Below the pieces are notes generated by a model. The model was not told the DNA's origin and ran no database searches. It worked only from the letters and a program-made list of their open reading frames with translations. This document shows positions 7,857 through 13,810 of a stretch of DNA of 64,000 bases, piece after piece. The position numbers and the translations under genes are program-made. Each line of letters starts with the position of its first letter. Within the stretch, counting starts at the first letter, position 1. Source of the stretch: Anaeromusa acidaminophila DSM 3853. Its GTDB lineage: Bacteria > Bacillota > Negativicutes > Anaeromusales > Anaeromusaceae. Location of the stretch: the NCBI RefSeq assembly GCF_000374545.1, contig NZ_KB894589.1, positions 71,221 through 135,220 of the forward strand, read 5' to 3'.

Positions 7857-9098
7857 ATGAAAAAACGTCTTGTAACTGCTCTCGCTCTTATGTTCGGCCT
7901 CGGCGTCGGCGCTACCGCCTTCGCAGCTGCCAATCCTTTCGTCGATGTTCCGGCGAAACACTGGGCCTATGATGCTGTAAACAAACTGGCTAAAGCCGGT
8001 ATTGTTGACGGCTATGGCGACGGCACCTTCCGTGGCGACCGTACCATGACCCGTTATGAAATGGCTCAGATCGTTGCTAAAGCTATGGCTCGCAGCGACA
8101 AAGCTGATGCTGAAACCAAAGCTACTATCGACAAGCTGGCTACTGAGTTCAGCGCTGAAATCGAAAACCTCGGCGTTCGCGTTGCTAAGTTGGAAAAGAA
8201 ATCTGACAACCTGCGTTTTGACGGTAACTTGCGTACCCGTATTATTAGCAATAGCATGGATCATGGTGTTCAGAGCACCACTGATCGTGAAATTCGCTAT
8301 CGTTTAGGTGCTCATGCAGAAGTGAATGACACCTGGAAAGTGCATGCGTTGTTTGAAGGCAACTTGAATGACAACAACTATGGTGCTGATGACAACAACC
8401 TGAAAGTGGACGAAATGTACGCTGAAGGCGCTTTGGGAGCTACGACGCTGTCCGTTGGTAAATTCATTCAAAAAGAAACCGGCGATTTGATTCTTGATGA
8501 AGTTTCCATCAAGGGTGCTCGTTTGGGCTTTGGTAATCAGTTGAAAGCGCAAGTTTTCTATGGTACGATGAACGCAAATCCTGCGACTAGTGATGATACC
8601 ACAAATGCATATGGTACTTCTTTGAACTGGGCTGCAGCTAAAAACTTCAGCATGTTTGGTTCGTATACCCATTTGAAAGACCGCAATGATGCTAATAGTC
8701 TTTGGAATGGTGAAAACTCTGGAAACGCTTGGGATGCTGGTTTCAACTACAAATTCAATAATGATTGGCAATTTACTGGTGTGTATGGAGCTACTTCTGC
8801 AAACGAGCAGAACAAAGCATTTAAAGCTGAGTTCCAGTACAAAGCTATTGATCTTAATAAAGTTGGTACCTGGCAGGCTGCTGCTGGCTACTGGAAACAT
8901 GAAGCTAACAGCCTTGTTGATACTGGCGCATGGGTTCCTTCCATTGCTGGCCAAGGTGCTAAAGGCTGGTATGTTGACGGTGCTTATGTACCGGCGAAAA
9001 ACATCAAACTTCGCGGTATCTATGGTCAGTTCAAAACTACCACCGGTGATGATGTTAAAGACAAATTTACCCGTGTTCAAGCTGAATTCTTCTTCTAA
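7857..9098 (+). CDS. SLH-domain outer-membrane porin (OmpM type)
   Basis: A 413-residue exported protein. The signal peptide ends near residues 23-24 (ATAFA-A). An SLH domain follows at about 25-75 (NPFVDVPAKHWAYDAVNKLA, DGYGDGTFRG, TRYEMAQIVAKAM), then a short coiled coil (about 80-118), then a beta-barrel rich in alternating aromatic strands that ends in EFFF with a terminal phenylalanine, as outer-membrane barrels do. In Negativicutes such proteins tether the outer membrane by binding polyamine-decorated peptidoglycan through the SLH domain while acting as pores. The ATG at 7857 has TTAGGAGGAAT upstream; an upstream in-frame ATG at 7743 is rejected because it would bury the signal peptide. 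Codon use is strongly biased, suggesting high expression. Confidence 0.95.
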   Translation: MKKRLVTALALMFGLGVGATAFAAANPFVDVPAKHWAYDAVNKLAKAGIVDGYGDGTFRGDRTMTRYEMAQIVAKAMARSDKADAETKATIDKLATEFSAEIENLGVRVAKLEKKSDNLRFDGNLRTRIISNSMDHGVQSTTDREIRYRLGAHAEVNDTWKVHALFEGNLNDNNYGADDNNLKVDEMYAEGALGATTLSVGKFIQKETGDLILDEVSIKGARLGFGNQLKAQVFYGTMNANPATSDDTTNAYGTSLNWAAAKNFSMFGSYTHLKDRNDANSLWNGENSGNAWDAGFNYKFNNDWQFTGVYGATSANEQNKAFKAEFQYKAIDLNKVGTWQAAAGYWKHEANSLVDTGAWVPSIAGQGAKGWYVDGAYVPAKNIKLRGIYGQFKTTTGDDVKDKFTRVQAEFFF

Positions 9099-9308: not shown

Positions 9309-10256
9309 ATGAAAGAGAAACTTTTAATGGCGGTTATCGCCGCTATGATCGCTATGCCGGCTACGGCGGCCTTGGCGGCCCCGGTGCAATTGGACGGAGA
9401 AATCGAAATGCAGTATAGCCAGGATAATGCAACGAAACAAGATGGTGGTCGTTTTACACTAAAATTGAATGCAAAAACCAATGTGGCGAAAAACTTGGAT
9501 ATGTATGGCCGGTTTGCAGCGCAAGGCATTACCCAAGAAAATTTTCGTAATGATTTCCGCAATACTGGTGCTGGTGCGTATTCGCAAGATACCAAGTCTA
9601 TGATGGAAATCGATCAATTTGGTTTCTTGTATGAAAATGCAGGTGTAAACTATAAGTTGGGCCGTCAAGGCGGTACCATTGGTGGGACAGCCCTTCTTTA
9701 CAGTACTGAAGGCTATGTAGGACGCGATATGATGGCAGATGGTATTATCATTAAGGGGAAATCTGGTGTAACTGATCTGTCGGTAACTGCATTGAAAGAA
9801 GTATATAAGGATAGCAATAAAGCCTATGCAGTTTCGGCTTCTTACAAGCCGGCTAAAGATTGGATTTTAGGAGCGACATTGGCTCGTTACGACGAAGTGC
9901 AGCGCGATCGTAACTATTGGGCTGTTAACACTGGCTATGAGACTGGAAAAGCTAATTTTACGGCGGAATACGCAAAATCTAATTCTAGTGATGCAAACAA
10001 GGCCTATGATTTAGGCGTGAGCTATGCTTTTGACAAAAAACTGTCTGCTTTTGCAGTGTACTATCGTGTAGAAAACAATGCCGATATGGGAGGATGGACT
10101 GATTTCGACCCGAATAACAAAGGGTTTTACTACGGACTTAACTACAAACCGGATTCTAAAACCGCATTTAAGCTCTTCTATAAAGATATCGAGAGCATCA
10201 CTAACAGCTCTGAAAAATCAAAACAATTCCGCGGTACTGTTTCTTACTTATTTTAA
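9309..10256 (+). CDS. Outer-membrane beta-barrel porin without SLH domain
   Basis: A 315-residue protein with a clear signal peptide (cleavage near residues 22-24, AALAA) and a barrel-like body of alternating hydrophobic strands: LDGEIEMQYSQ, GRFTLKLNAKT, VNYKLGRQGG. It ends in RGTVSYLF, so the last residue is the phenylalanine typical of barrels. The phrase KLGRQ resembles the constriction-zone strand of general porins. No SLH domain is present, so it would not hold the membrane to the wall. It is a separate transcription unit with its own promoter and terminator. The substrate is unknown. Confidence 0.85.
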   Translation: MKEKLLMAVIAAMIAMPATAALAAPVQLDGEIEMQYSQDNATKQDGGRFTLKLNAKTNVAKNLDMYGRFAAQGITQENFRNDFRNTGAGAYSQDTKSMMEIDQFGFLYENAGVNYKLGRQGGTIGGTALLYSTEGYVGRDMMADGIIIKGKSGVTDLSVTALKEVYKDSNKAYAVSASYKPAKDWILGATLARYDEVQRDRNYWAVNTGYETGKANFTAEYAKSNSSDANKAYDLGVSYAFDKKLSAFAVYYRVENNADMGGWTDFDPNNKGFYYGLNYKPDSKTAFKLFYKDIESITNSSEKSKQFRGTVSYLF

Positions 10257-10276: not shown

Positions 10277-10305
10277 AGGCCCTGCGATCGCAGGGCCTCT
10301 TTTCT
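10277..10305 (+). terminator. Intrinsic terminator after the second porin
   Basis: A perfect 22-nt palindrome AGGCCCTGCGATCGCAGGGCCT at 10277-10298 followed by CTTTTCTTTT. Confidence 0.9.
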
Positions 10306-10713: not shown

Positions 10714-11151
10714 ATGGCAACAAAAAGAAAATTAATGGCGGCAGTTTTAGCTGGAGCGCTGGCAACGGGAATTGCTATGCCAGCAACACAGGCATTTAGT
10801 TTAGGCGATGTGTTGAAAGTAGGCGGAATTGGTTTTTTGGTAGACCGCTTTGCAGGGCCGCTGAATAGCTTCATTAATACCTTGACATTTAAGAATAAGG
10901 CAGGGAATGATTATGCCACCAAAGTGGTGCCCGTGCTTACCTTTGGCAGCGGCGGCTATGTGGGGGCTGTCCAGGTAACCGGCTCTCAGGAGTTAGTAGA
11001 TCGGACACAGGCGGTGTTGCAGTTAGAGAGCGATTTCAATGGCGGGCAATTTCGCGTGAAGGCGCTTGTGCCGATTTCTAGCAAAAATCCGGTCAACTTT
11101 AGCCGTGTGCAAGGTGTGGGTGTTTCGGCAACCATTGACGTACGTATTTAG
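10714..11151 (+). CDS. Secreted protein of unknown function
   Basis: A 145-residue protein with a signal peptide (MATKRKLMAAVLAGALATG, cleavage near TQA-F at about residue 27). The mature part of about 118 residues has glycine-rich turns and beta-strand patterning (VLTFGSGGYVGAVQV, FRVKALVPIS). I do not recognise the family. The start at 10714 follows AAAAGGAGGAACGATT; an in-frame ATG at 10690 lies upstream of that Shine-Dalgarno and is rejected. It is followed 13 nt later by another secreted unknown, so the two probably form an operon between porins and lptD. A periplasmic or outer-membrane-associated place is likely; nothing more can be said. Confidence 0.75.
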   Translation: MATKRKLMAAVLAGALATGIAMPATQAFSLGDVLKVGGIGFLVDRFAGPLNSFINTLTFKNKAGNDYATKVVPVLTFGSGGYVGAVQVTGSQELVDRTQAVLQLESDFNGGQFRVKALVPISSKNPVNFSRVQGVGVSATIDVRI

Positions 11152-11164
11152 GAGGTACATAAGG

Positions 11165-12094
11165 ATGAAGCGATTAATTATATTAGCAACGGTTATGCTG
11201 ACTCTGATTTTAAGCAGCACATTAGCGTGTGCGCAAGAAACTACGGTAGTAGACAAATTGAATGCAATGGATCGGACTCTTTATGGCAGCGAACAAACAG
11301 GGGCGCTCTTGGAACGGGTGCAAAAAGTGGAAAATGATGTGACTGGTCAAATAAGCAAAGAAGCGATCATTCCACGCGTGGATTCGTTGTACGAAACAGT
11401 GTTTCATTCGACAGAAAATGCGCCGTCGCTACTCTTGAAAGTGAATGCCGTAGAGTGGGCATTGCAGCATCAGGTAAATGGAACGGTACCAGTAAAAAGC
11501 CGTATTGAAGGCTTAGAACGTACCGTAACAGGGAATTCTACGCCGGGAGCGTTTCAAGACCGGGTAACTAAGCTTTTAAGCTTGGCTTATGCCGATGGAA
11601 AGGCGCAAACGGCGCCATTGATTCTTCCGAAAGATTCTCTCATTAAAATCAGCTTTTTAACAGCGCTGGACAGTAAAACCGCTCGAGTGGGGGATGTAGT
11701 AGAATTCCAGGCAGCCGATGATGTTTTGGTAAATGGCATACTAGCAGTTGCTAAGGGAGGTCGCGGCATAGGCAAGGTGAGCAAAGTCGAGCGTGCCAGC
11801 AATTTTGGACGCGACGGTAAAATTGAAATCAATTTTGAAGATCTTGAGACCATTGATGAACTGAAATTACCTGTTTTTTTAGGAGAAAAAGCCAAGGAAG
11901 AAACTAAATCCTATGCTAAAGCAGCTGGGGCAACTGTAGCCGGCATGATTATCTTAGGGCCGGTTGGTGTGATCGGCGGCGCCTTTGTCCATGGCGATGA
12001 ATTGAAAATCCCTGTTGGCGCGCAAATGTTTGTACAGACTAAAGCGGAAATATCCCTGGTGGGCGTTGTGCCTCCGGGAACTGTAACACAATAA
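11165..12094 (+). CDS. Secreted repeat protein of unknown function
   Basis: A 309-residue exported protein. The signal peptide ends near residue 23 (LACA-Q). Three degenerate repeats of about 40 residues follow, each with a pattern like L-x-T-x-x-G-(S/N)-x-x-x-G-x-x-x-x-R-V-x-K: TLYGSEQTGALLERVQKVE, then VFHSTENAPSLLLKVNAVE, then TVTGNSTPGAFQDRVTKLL. The C-terminal half (about 130-309) looks beta-rich and contains a glycine-rich hydrophobic stretch AGATVAGMIILGPVGVIGGA that could be a membrane-inserting or oligomerising segment. The start has AGGAGGTACATAAGG upstream. Paired with the unknown secreted gene before it. The family was not recognised; a role in outer-membrane attachment or assembly is only a guess from position. 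Confidence 0.75.
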   Translation: MKRLIILATVMLTLILSSTLACAQETTVVDKLNAMDRTLYGSEQTGALLERVQKVENDVTGQISKEAIIPRVDSLYETVFHSTENAPSLLLKVNAVEWALQHQVNGTVPVKSRIEGLERTVTGNSTPGAFQDRVTKLLSLAYADGKAQTAPLILPKDSLIKISFLTALDSKTARVGDVVEFQAADDVLVNGILAVAKGGRGIGKVSKVERASNFGRDGKIEINFEDLETIDELKLPVFLGEKAKEETKSYAKAAGATVAGMIILGPVGVIGGAFVHGDELKIPVGAQMFVQTKAEISLVGVVPPGTVTQ

Positions 12095-12104
12095 TACAGT
12101 GATC

Positions 12105-12146
12105 AATAAGCACAAAGCCGGCTCCTGCCGCTTTGTGCTTATTTTC
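12105..12146 (+). terminator. Intrinsic terminator after the two secreted unknowns
   Basis: AATAAGCACAAAGC at 12105-12118 pairs perfectly with GCTTTGTGCTTATT at 12130-12143 and runs into TTTTC. Confidence 0.88.
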
Positions 12147-12182
12147 TTGATATAAGAGAACGACGTACATGAGTATAGGTTT

Positions 12183-12415: not shown

Positions 12416-13810
12416 ATGAATACATCCTATAAATGGCTGGCTGTAGCGTTGTCTTGCATGCTTGGCATGGCTGTGTGCGCGGAAACCGGTGAAGCAGCTA
12501 AAAAGAAAAAAGAAGAAGCGCCCAAAGAGCAGCTGCCTGTAGTTGTTGAAGGGGACGAAATTTACTTTCAGGATACCAGCGGCGACCTGTATGTAAAAGG
12601 TAATGCGTTTGTGGAGCAGGGACTGGGGAAAATTGCAGCAGAATTTATTCGAGGCAATGCTAGGCAGGAAACTGTCTTTGTGGATGAAGAAGCAACATTA
12701 TTACAGCCTGACACTCGGGTTGTAGGTGACCATGTCGCTTATAACTATGGGAAAAAGACAGGCAACATGGAACATATAAATGGAAAAATAGGAAATGAAT
12801 ATGTGATTGGCGGACGAATGGAAGTCTTTCCAGATCACTACGTCATTTATGATGCTACGATGACTCGCTGTAATGCTCATGTGCCGGATTATCGTCTTAC
12901 AGCTAGTAAAATTATTATTTGGCCGAATCAGCAAATGATTTCCTATGATAATAAAGTATGGTTAAAAAATACTGTGATTTACTCGGTGGACAGGAATAAA
13001 AGATCTTTACGGCCAGAAGATCAAGATCAAAGTGAAATGCCGAAAGTAGGTATTAATTCCAATTCGGGATTTTATATTGAACACACCTTGCGATATCCTA
13101 TTGATGAAAGGATAACTATAGGAATGCCGTTTAAGGCAGCAACGCATACGAAAGATAACCGTTTTGCCAGCTACTTGCAATATCAAGGGAATGGCTATAG
13201 TGCAGCAATAAATTATGGTGAATATGAAGACGGGGACGACAATTCTGTATGGAAACAGCCTGAATTTTCTTGGGGGACTAATGCTAAGAAAATAGGAACA
13301 AGCAATATTAGCTATACTTTATATGGCACATCAGGGATGTGGAAGGATAAGGAAAAGCGAAGTTGGCATCAAGTTTATGGGGTATATTTTAGTCATAGTC
13401 CTATTAAATTGAGTCAAGATAATACATTACAGTTGCACTTGGGAACTGGTTATGAACAAGTTCTCGAGAGCTATAATCATTCACGAGCAAATGTGATTCG
13501 TGAAGATATCGGAATAACAAAAAATTGGAGAAAAGCCAATGCATGGTTGTCGTGGCATAATCGTGAAAACCAAAGTGATTTGTTCTCTTATGATAGTGAT
13601 AATATGAATAGGGAAATTGACTATGGGTTTCATGTTCAAGTTGGCAAAAAAGACGCTCTCGAATGGAATGAGCGTTGGGATGCTGTCAATAGTCGCGTGT
13701 ATGACCGGGATATTAGCTGGATTCATAATTTGCATTGCTGGGAACTGCGAGTAATGTACAGAGCGGAACGTCATCAATTGAAATTTACGCTAGCCACTGC
13801 TCATTTTTAG
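12416..13810 (+). CDS. lptD: LptD-like outer-membrane LPS assembly protein (short form)
   Basis: A 464-residue exported protein. After a signal peptide and a lysine-rich spacer (AAKKKKEEAPKEQ), an OstA/LptD jellyroll domain occupies about residues 40-150 (VVVEGDEIYFQDTSGDLYVK, VVGDHVAYNYGKKTG). The region TRCNAHVPDYRLTASKIIIW matches the LptD turn between jellyroll and barrel, and the near-terminal HNLHCWELRVMYR matches the last LptD strands. LptD inserts LPS into the outer leaflet. It is much shorter than E. coli LptD (784 residues), implying a smaller barrel, and lies about 7 kb from lptCAB-F/G. Two cysteines (the one in TRCNAH and the one in LHCWE) are retained. It ends LATAHF with a terminal phenylalanine. 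The Shine-Dalgarno is AGGAG. Confidence 0.85.
   Translation: MNTSYKWLAVALSCMLGMAVCAETGEAAKKKKEEAPKEQLPVVVEGDEIYFQDTSGDLYVKGNAFVEQGLGKIAAEFIRGNARQETVFVDEEATLLQPDTRVVGDHVAYNYGKKTGNMEHINGKIGNEYVIGGRMEVFPDHYVIYDATMTRCNAHVPDYRLTASKIIIWPNQQMISYDNKVWLKNTVIYSVDRNKRSLRPEDQDQSEMPKVGINSNSGFYIEHTLRYPIDERITIGMPFKAATHTKDNRFASYLQYQGNGYSAAINYGEYEDGDDNSVWKQPEFSWGTNAKKIGTSNISYTLYGTSGMWKDKEKRSWHQVYGVYFSHSPIKLSQDNTLQLHLGTGYEQVLESYNHSRANVIREDIGITKNWRKANAWLSWHNRENQSDLFSYDSDNMNREIDYGFHVQVGKKDALEWNERWDAVNSRVYDRDISWIHNLHCWELRVMYRAERHQLKFTLATAHF

Follow-up and report, generated by a model that had tools for sequence, protein, structure and literature searches.

A secreted protein of diderm Firmicutes with a predicted VirB10/TrbI-type C-terminal domain, encoded between porin and lptD genes

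The P1-P2 locus

The window, namely the whole stretch of 64,000 nucleotides analysed here, comes from Anaeromusa acidaminophila DSM 3853 (contig NZ_KB894589.1, positions 71,221 to 135,220), and positions below are counted from its first letter. Five genes on its forward strand encode, in this order, OmpM, a Porin_4-type porin, P1, P2 and a short LptD. The ompM gene (7857-9098, likely start MKKRLVTALA) encodes a porin with a Pfam SLH match and an NCBIfam por_somb match below the cut-off, and the next porin (9309-10256) has a Pfam Porin_4 match. A terminator of this porin gene with a 9-bp GC-rich stem followed by a T-run (10277-10298, forward strand) parts it from P1 (10714-11151) and P2 (11165-12094), which encode secreted proteins of 145 and 309 amino acids, respectively. 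The gap of 13 bp between the stop codon of P1 and the start codon of P2 bears a Shine-Dalgarno-like AGGAGG and so is compatible with an operon. The unit ends at a terminator on the same strand (12105-12150) in which TTTTCTT comes after a hairpin spanning about 12105-12143. This hairpin, missed by the general scan that listed 10277-10298, has a folding energy of -26.7 kcal/mol and a z-score of -7.3, and none of 200 shuffled sequences is equally stable. Inspection places the signal peptide of P1 at MATKRK...ATQA/FS and that of P2 at MKRLII...ACA/QE (about residues 1-23, 11165-11233), the latter with a hydrophobic core in the hydropathy profile, and detects no convincing lipobox in either protein. 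The short lptD gene (12416-13810) encodes 464 amino acids; its product has no Pfam match of its own above the cut-off and aligns with Vpar_0647 and with LptD_N/DUF3769 proteins. BamA is encoded 29 kb from P2 on the same contig. Promoter-like sites occur at chance level, with 7 seen against 5.4 expected, and a repeated intergenic element suspected across two non-coding stretches was not confirmed by comparison. The ORF positions, the 13-bp spacing and the stable hairpin bear out the earlier note, which had described two open reading frames with signal peptides in one operon with a strong 3' terminator, and OmpM with its SLH domain, the Porin_4 porin and LptD likewise bear out the outer-membrane gene block that it named as their setting.

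Homology and identical gene order make P1, P2 and the short lptD the orthologues of Vpar_0645, Vpar_0646 and Vpar_0647 of Veillonella parvula DSM 2008; in genome G095, base 780878 is the first of the match to P1, and locus L130, with its three genes, extends exactly over CP001820.1:780878-784136, the interval in print. In the passages of Poppleton et al. (2017; PMC5491611) that concern these genes, Vpar_0645 and Vpar_0646 are detected in outer-membrane and surface fractions and lie beside lptD, and Vpar_0646 is conserved with lptD in Negativicutes; these passages give no domain and no clear homologue, and suggest a role in the Lpt system or as LptE. The pair, regarded as unknown in the earlier note, is therefore already in the literature, and the same fractions agree with its view of the two proteins as outer-membrane candidates. 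A full-text search for the locus tags Vpar_0645, Vpar_0646 and Vpar_0647 returned PMC5491611 alone, and a literature search, with preprints outside its scope, retrieved nothing linking VirB10 or TrbI to envelope genes of Negativicutes. New here, and different from that published account, are the VirB10-type fold of P2, its presence far beyond Negativicutes and its retention in genomes lacking LpxC.

P1 itself gave nothing above chance in Pfam, NCBIfam and PDB sequence searches, and its AlphaFold2 (AF2) model, built from 17 sequences, has a pLDDT of 50 and is unusable. A resemblance to the SYLF/YSC84 lipid-binding family was considered and dropped since there was no match at all. P1 is found in 156 of the 250 class genomes (55 of 91 genera), as against 235 for P2, and often lies at other genome sites, so that the two genes do not form a fixed unit. 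Outside the class, it accompanies P2 in 6 of 71 P2-positive genomes; it is absent from the 63 genomes without Omp85 that were examined (out of 297 such genomes in the phylum sample) and from 17 genomes with Omp85 but without P2, save for one marginal match of 38 positions in G422 (E 0.008). In one genome outside the class (L195:6857-7309 and upstream), an OmpM gene and a gene for a protein that we take from its sequence to be patatin-like adjoin P1; its neighbours in the other genomes outside the class look unrelated to the envelope. P1 may be an optional secreted accessory of the same envelope as P2.

Architecture of P2 and its likeness to VirB10/TrbI

Neither P2 nor P1 has a Pfam or NCBIfam match above the cut-off, and a match of P2 to Pfam IML1_N below the cut-off (E 0.0065) was judged to be due to chance. 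The AF2 model of P2, built from 40 sequences, has a pLDDT of 85.7 and a pTM of 0.80, and is composed of six helices (residues 28-141), a beta domain (149-238), a helix (241-253), a hairpin (256-276) and closing strands (287-301). The helices at residues 28-40, 48-60, 68-80, 89-101, 110-122 and 130-141 coincide with six repeats of about 20 residues each, which start at residues 27, 47, 67, 88, 109 and 129 and together occupy residues 27-145 (11243-11599). The pairwise score of these repeats is 181, compared with -85 ± 25 in 60 shuffles (maximum -22). The first part of the beta domain is encoded by 11609-11878 (residues 149-238), the helix and the Gly-rich hydrophobic hairpin by 11882-11995 (residues 240-277) and the last two strands, which close the beta domain, by 12023-12067 (residues 287-301). 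The hairpin is modelled with low confidence (pLDDT 40-54 over residues 256-276) and is the best conserved part of the protein, with a conservation of 0.82 compared with 0.53 to 0.73 elsewhere; the beta domain has 0.61 and the repeats, with 0.53, are the least conserved part. Thus, repeats and a Gly-rich hydrophobic stretch (residues 251-277) are present as first noticed from the sequence, and six repeats of about 20 residues take the place of the three of about 40 then counted.

Profile searches and structure prediction, set beforehand as the test, led to a VirB10-type fold for the C-terminal domain of P2 and, for P1, to the unusable model described above. In a Foldseek search of the P2 model against the PDB, ranks 1-22 are all outer-membrane domains of the VirB10 family, the best with an E-value of 7e-6 (CagY), and rank 23 is an unrelated chain with an E-value of 0.08. 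The 22 entries comprise CagY, VirB10 of Xanthomonas citri, ComB10, TraF, TrwE, the Dot/Icm dome and F-plasmid TraB or F-plasmid-type core complexes. The TM-scores of the 19 matches with E-values under 0.001 are 0.25-0.28 by query and 0.32-0.42 by target, which are low partly because the comparison spans the C-terminal half only. VIA-align gives Z-scores of 9.6 to 5.5 for the VirB10 family and 3.2 for the next entry; in effect it covered residues 150-301 of the model, with no informative match for the helical repeats.

An independent profile comparison was made with genuine VirB10 proteins of the class, that is, with seven TrbI-positive genes lying beside VirB9 in those class genomes that have VirB9 (8 of 100); the eighth VirB9 locus was excluded since it has no TrbI-positive ORF directly after VirB9. 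With hhalign, an alignment of 27 P2 proteins matches these seven with a probability of 85.5% and an E-value of 5.7e-6 over P2 residues 145-239, a narrower P2 alignment of 40 rows matches them with 46.6% and 2e-4, and P1, compared as a control, yields 1.3%. Among the P2 relatives, TrbI is the Pfam family matched most often, always below the cut-off, being found in 5 of 40 relatives (best E-value 7e-4, tied with DUF456) and, in the set of 27, in 6 (best 1e-4). P2 itself is not listed for TrbI (PF03743, curated cut-off 35 bits) at E-values up to 1, and VirB10 did not come up when the PDB was searched directly by sequence with P2 or with profiles of it. The sole PDB sequence match of P2 below 1e-3, 8e1e_A (6e-5), consists of three weak scattered pieces and was set aside.

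The C-terminal domain of P2 therefore resembles that of VirB10, TrbI, CagY, ComB10 and DotG (PF03743) in its modelled fold, in a strand order with an insertion before the last strands and in profile-profile similarity. VirB10/TrbI proteins, which form ring-shaped oligomers, begin with a cytoplasmic tail, an inner-membrane helix and a periplasmic linker; P2, in contrast, lacks all three and has a cleavable signal peptide and six helical repeats. The insertion that in VirB10 forms the antenna, a hairpin crossing the outer membrane, is also shorter in P2: between flanking landmarks it measures 52-59 residues in the 27 P2 proteins compared with 71-92 in the seven VirB10 proteins, and since this shorter hairpin is of low confidence in the model, it need not span the membrane fully. 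Because the score of P2 falls under the Pfam cut-off, its N-terminal architecture differs and no type IV secretion system (T4SS) genes lie nearby, whereas VirB10 genes accompany those for VirB9, VirB7 and the T4SS ATPases, P2 is not placed in the VirB10/TrbI family. By the model and the profiles, however, its C-terminal domain has a VirB10/TrbI-type fold and may work like the VirB10 domain. The original impression of a protein of no recognised family thus stands as far as Pfam and NCBIfam families are concerned, but not with respect to the fold relatives found by Foldseek, VIA-align and hhalign.

The domain is also encountered by itself. A hypothetical protein of about 203 residues encoded on plasmid pSRL2 of Sphingobium indicum (L199:3902-4513) is 31% identical to P2 residues 153-298 (E 7e-9), suggesting that the VirB10-like domain occurs alone in Proteobacteria too. 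Extra paralogues at G043:C1:1912031-1912450, G583:C159, G491:C145 and G468:C6 match only the VirB10-like half of P2.

Distribution and gene context of P2

In the class, 235 of 250 genomes contain P2, and these cover 86 of 91 genera. In a phylum sample of 398 genomes, P2 is found in 85, Omp85/BamA in 101 and both in 84, giving a Fisher p of 1e-67 for their co-occurrence, a value for genomes that are not independent and uncorrected for kinship. All 31 P2-positive families include at least one Omp85-positive member. The only P2-positive genome without Omp85 (G603) is a draft in 320 contigs, and other members of its family have Omp85. Conversely, 17 of the 101 Omp85-positive genomes, belonging to families f55, f116, f125, f138 and f143 or being single members of other families, have no P2 even with a broader and deeper profile, indicating that P2 is not indispensable for an outer membrane. 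Across the phylum, P2 thus goes together with an outer membrane and is probably a core part of the envelope; the link to diderm Firmicutes, first proposed from one locus, holds phylum-wide.

Among the 39 named Negativicutes loci, 36 have more than 500 bp downstream of P2, and in 32 of these 36 lptD starts within about 310 bp 3' of P2 (the exceptions are L065, L085, L086 and L089). Outside the class, where 20 loci were read, one per family, P2 mostly lies in a block of the order LptB-LptFG-DUF3084-RuvX-OmpM-porin-P2, and 10 of the 20 loci have lptD as the next gene. In the examined loci with another gene at this place, it encodes a Wza-like SLBB exporter (L132, L141, L149) or MetK (L137, L139, L142, L143). 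The Wza-like exporters directly after P2 (L132:2671-5280, L141:5111-8806 and L149:10743-15518) have 10, 13 and 16 SLBB repeats, respectively, far above the number in Wza. OmpM shares the gene block with P2 in most loci read; P2 differs from it in having neither an SLH domain nor a long porin barrel. Antunes et al. (2016; PMC5007114), in the parts of that article concerned with the envelope locus, describe this locus and report no LptD or LptE in it, and the three unknown genes that they highlight there are others.

Outside the class, 67 of the 71 known P2-positive genomes were examined for LpxC, and 16 of the 67 are LpxC-negative. Fifteen of these fall in families f70, f89, f95 and f105, in which no examined member has LpxC; the sixteenth, G403, is a draft in 450 contigs, and other members of its family have LpxC. 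Families f70, f89, f95 and f105 (with genomes G310, G325, G284 and G361) have Omp85 and, in the loci read, parts of the envelope block, and are probably diderms without canonical LPS. In the loci read from the 16 LpxC-negative genomes, no short LptD adjoins P2. A simple claim that P2 occurs without LptD was nevertheless weakened because all 16 match the LptD profile elsewhere, mostly through a long LptD-like frame of 727-1140 amino acids away from P2 (G468 has only a piece of 295 amino acids). Many genomes outside the class (such as G250, G297, G388, G417 and G519) encode two LptD-like proteins, a short one beside P2 and a long one of about 730-1140 amino acids, the latter often near BamA; it is chiefly this long form that LpxC-negative genomes retain. 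In G396, the LpxC match (G396:C1:2530119-2530926) falls into two pieces that overlap, one of which contains a stop codon, and the gene is apparently broken.

Possible roles of P2 at the outer membrane

The proximity of lptD, both in Negativicutes and in half of the loci outside the class, would suit a partner of LptD such as LptE, and Poppleton et al. (2017) proposed such a role; P2, with or without P1, would then be a functional equivalent of LptE or another LptD partner in LPS export. LptE (PF04390) is found in none of 100 class genomes, in a search whose positive controls worked, and so a replacement for LptE is wanted. LptE is a lipoprotein that plugs the LptD barrel; inspection shows no convincing lipobox in P1 or P2. 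The distribution of P2, however, does not follow the obligate association with LptD and LPS expected of LptE. P2 is kept in LpxC-negative families, where the gene after it, in the one locus read from each, encodes a Wza-like protein or MetK, and it is absent from G493 and G422, members of two families, in which LptD is retained; locus L190 has OmpM, one further ORF and LptD without P2. Moreover, neither P2 nor P1 profiles show similarity to any LptE chain in the PDB. All of the LpxC-negative genomes still match the LptD profile, mostly in the long frame, so that P2 may yet be linked to that LptD-like protein. The retention of P2 without LpxC and of LptD without P2 weakens a role as LptE equivalent, which we consider unlikely.

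It has also to be considered that P2 links outer membrane and cell wall as a tether, with the hairpin as membrane anchor and the helical repeats binding peptidoglycan or its secondary polymer, as the earlier note implied in suggesting an attachment factor. The six-helix region would be suited to reach into the periplasm, and P2 shares its block with the SLH tether OmpM in most loci; but Pfam and NCBIfam searches with P2, and Pfam searches with its relatives, reveal no known peptidoglycan-binding domain, the repeat region is the least conserved part of P2, and the neighbouring OmpM already serves as an outer-membrane tether according to a published account (PMC10628300). Nothing was found in favour of attachment to peptidoglycan, and a tether is quite improbable. 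A soluble periplasmic chaperone or assembly factor, whose likeness to VirB10 would reflect only a common beta fold, is given a similarly low probability: middling VIA-align Z-scores can arise from a merely common arrangement, and the hairpin is modelled with low confidence, but the first 22 Foldseek ranks belong exclusively to the VirB10 family and are followed by a sharp drop, hhalign independently agrees with it, the hydrophobic hairpin of about 25 residues is the most conserved part of P2, and the V. parvula orthologue is described in outer-membrane and surface fractions in the relevant passages of PMC5491611. Finally, the VirB10-type fold could mark P2 as part of a conjugative or effector T4SS, either as a subunit or as what is left of one. 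This is very improbable and already largely refuted, since P2 starts with a signal peptide and has no inner-membrane anchor, it is near-universal in the class compared with VirB9 in 8 of 100 class genomes, VirB9 is absent from the genome of the window (G000), and the T4SS loci of the class carry separate TrbI-positive VirB10 genes beside VirB9. Consistently, no secretion-system genes are found among the neighbours of P2 in the window, and 72,556 plasmid records contain one P2 match, the hypothetical protein of Sphingobium, which covers the C-terminal domain only.

The reading that we prefer, at about an even chance of being right, is that P2 belongs to the core of the outer membrane in diderm Firmicutes, as a subunit of a scaffold or channel, and that it has a VirB10/TrbI-type C-terminal domain and is independent of any T4SS. 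The signal peptide seen in the sequence suggests that P2 is exported by Sec. Its C-terminal domain, for which the fold has been computed, would then fold into a beta barrel of VirB10 type along the inner face of the outer membrane, and we infer that the conserved Gly-rich hairpin, at the position of the VirB10 antenna but about 20-40 residues shorter, may insert into the outer membrane from the periplasm. P2 subunits might assemble into a homo-oligomeric ring that acts, amid the porins and outer-membrane export proteins of the neighbouring genes, as a scaffold or channel, and the six short helices would face the periplasm, where they are likely to contact a partner. By extension, though only tentatively, diderm Firmicutes may have a VirB10-type outer-membrane ring complex unrelated to DNA or effector secretion, namely a channel or scaffold of general use that came with the ancestral envelope block, and the VirB10 of T4SSs and P2 may share an ancestral outer-membrane domain.

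How the outer membrane was gained or lost in Firmicutes is an open question, and the machinery of this membrane in these bacteria has mostly been guessed from E. coli. In the sampled phylum, P2 marks genomes with an outer membrane almost as well as BamA does, and it also offers a marker for diderm lineages without LpxC. Although known from the outer membrane of a cultured species, P2 previously had neither a domain nor a function assigned to it and its gene had no name; the VirB10-type fold provides a specific and testable idea, that of a ring or scaffold in the outer membrane that works without any secretion system.
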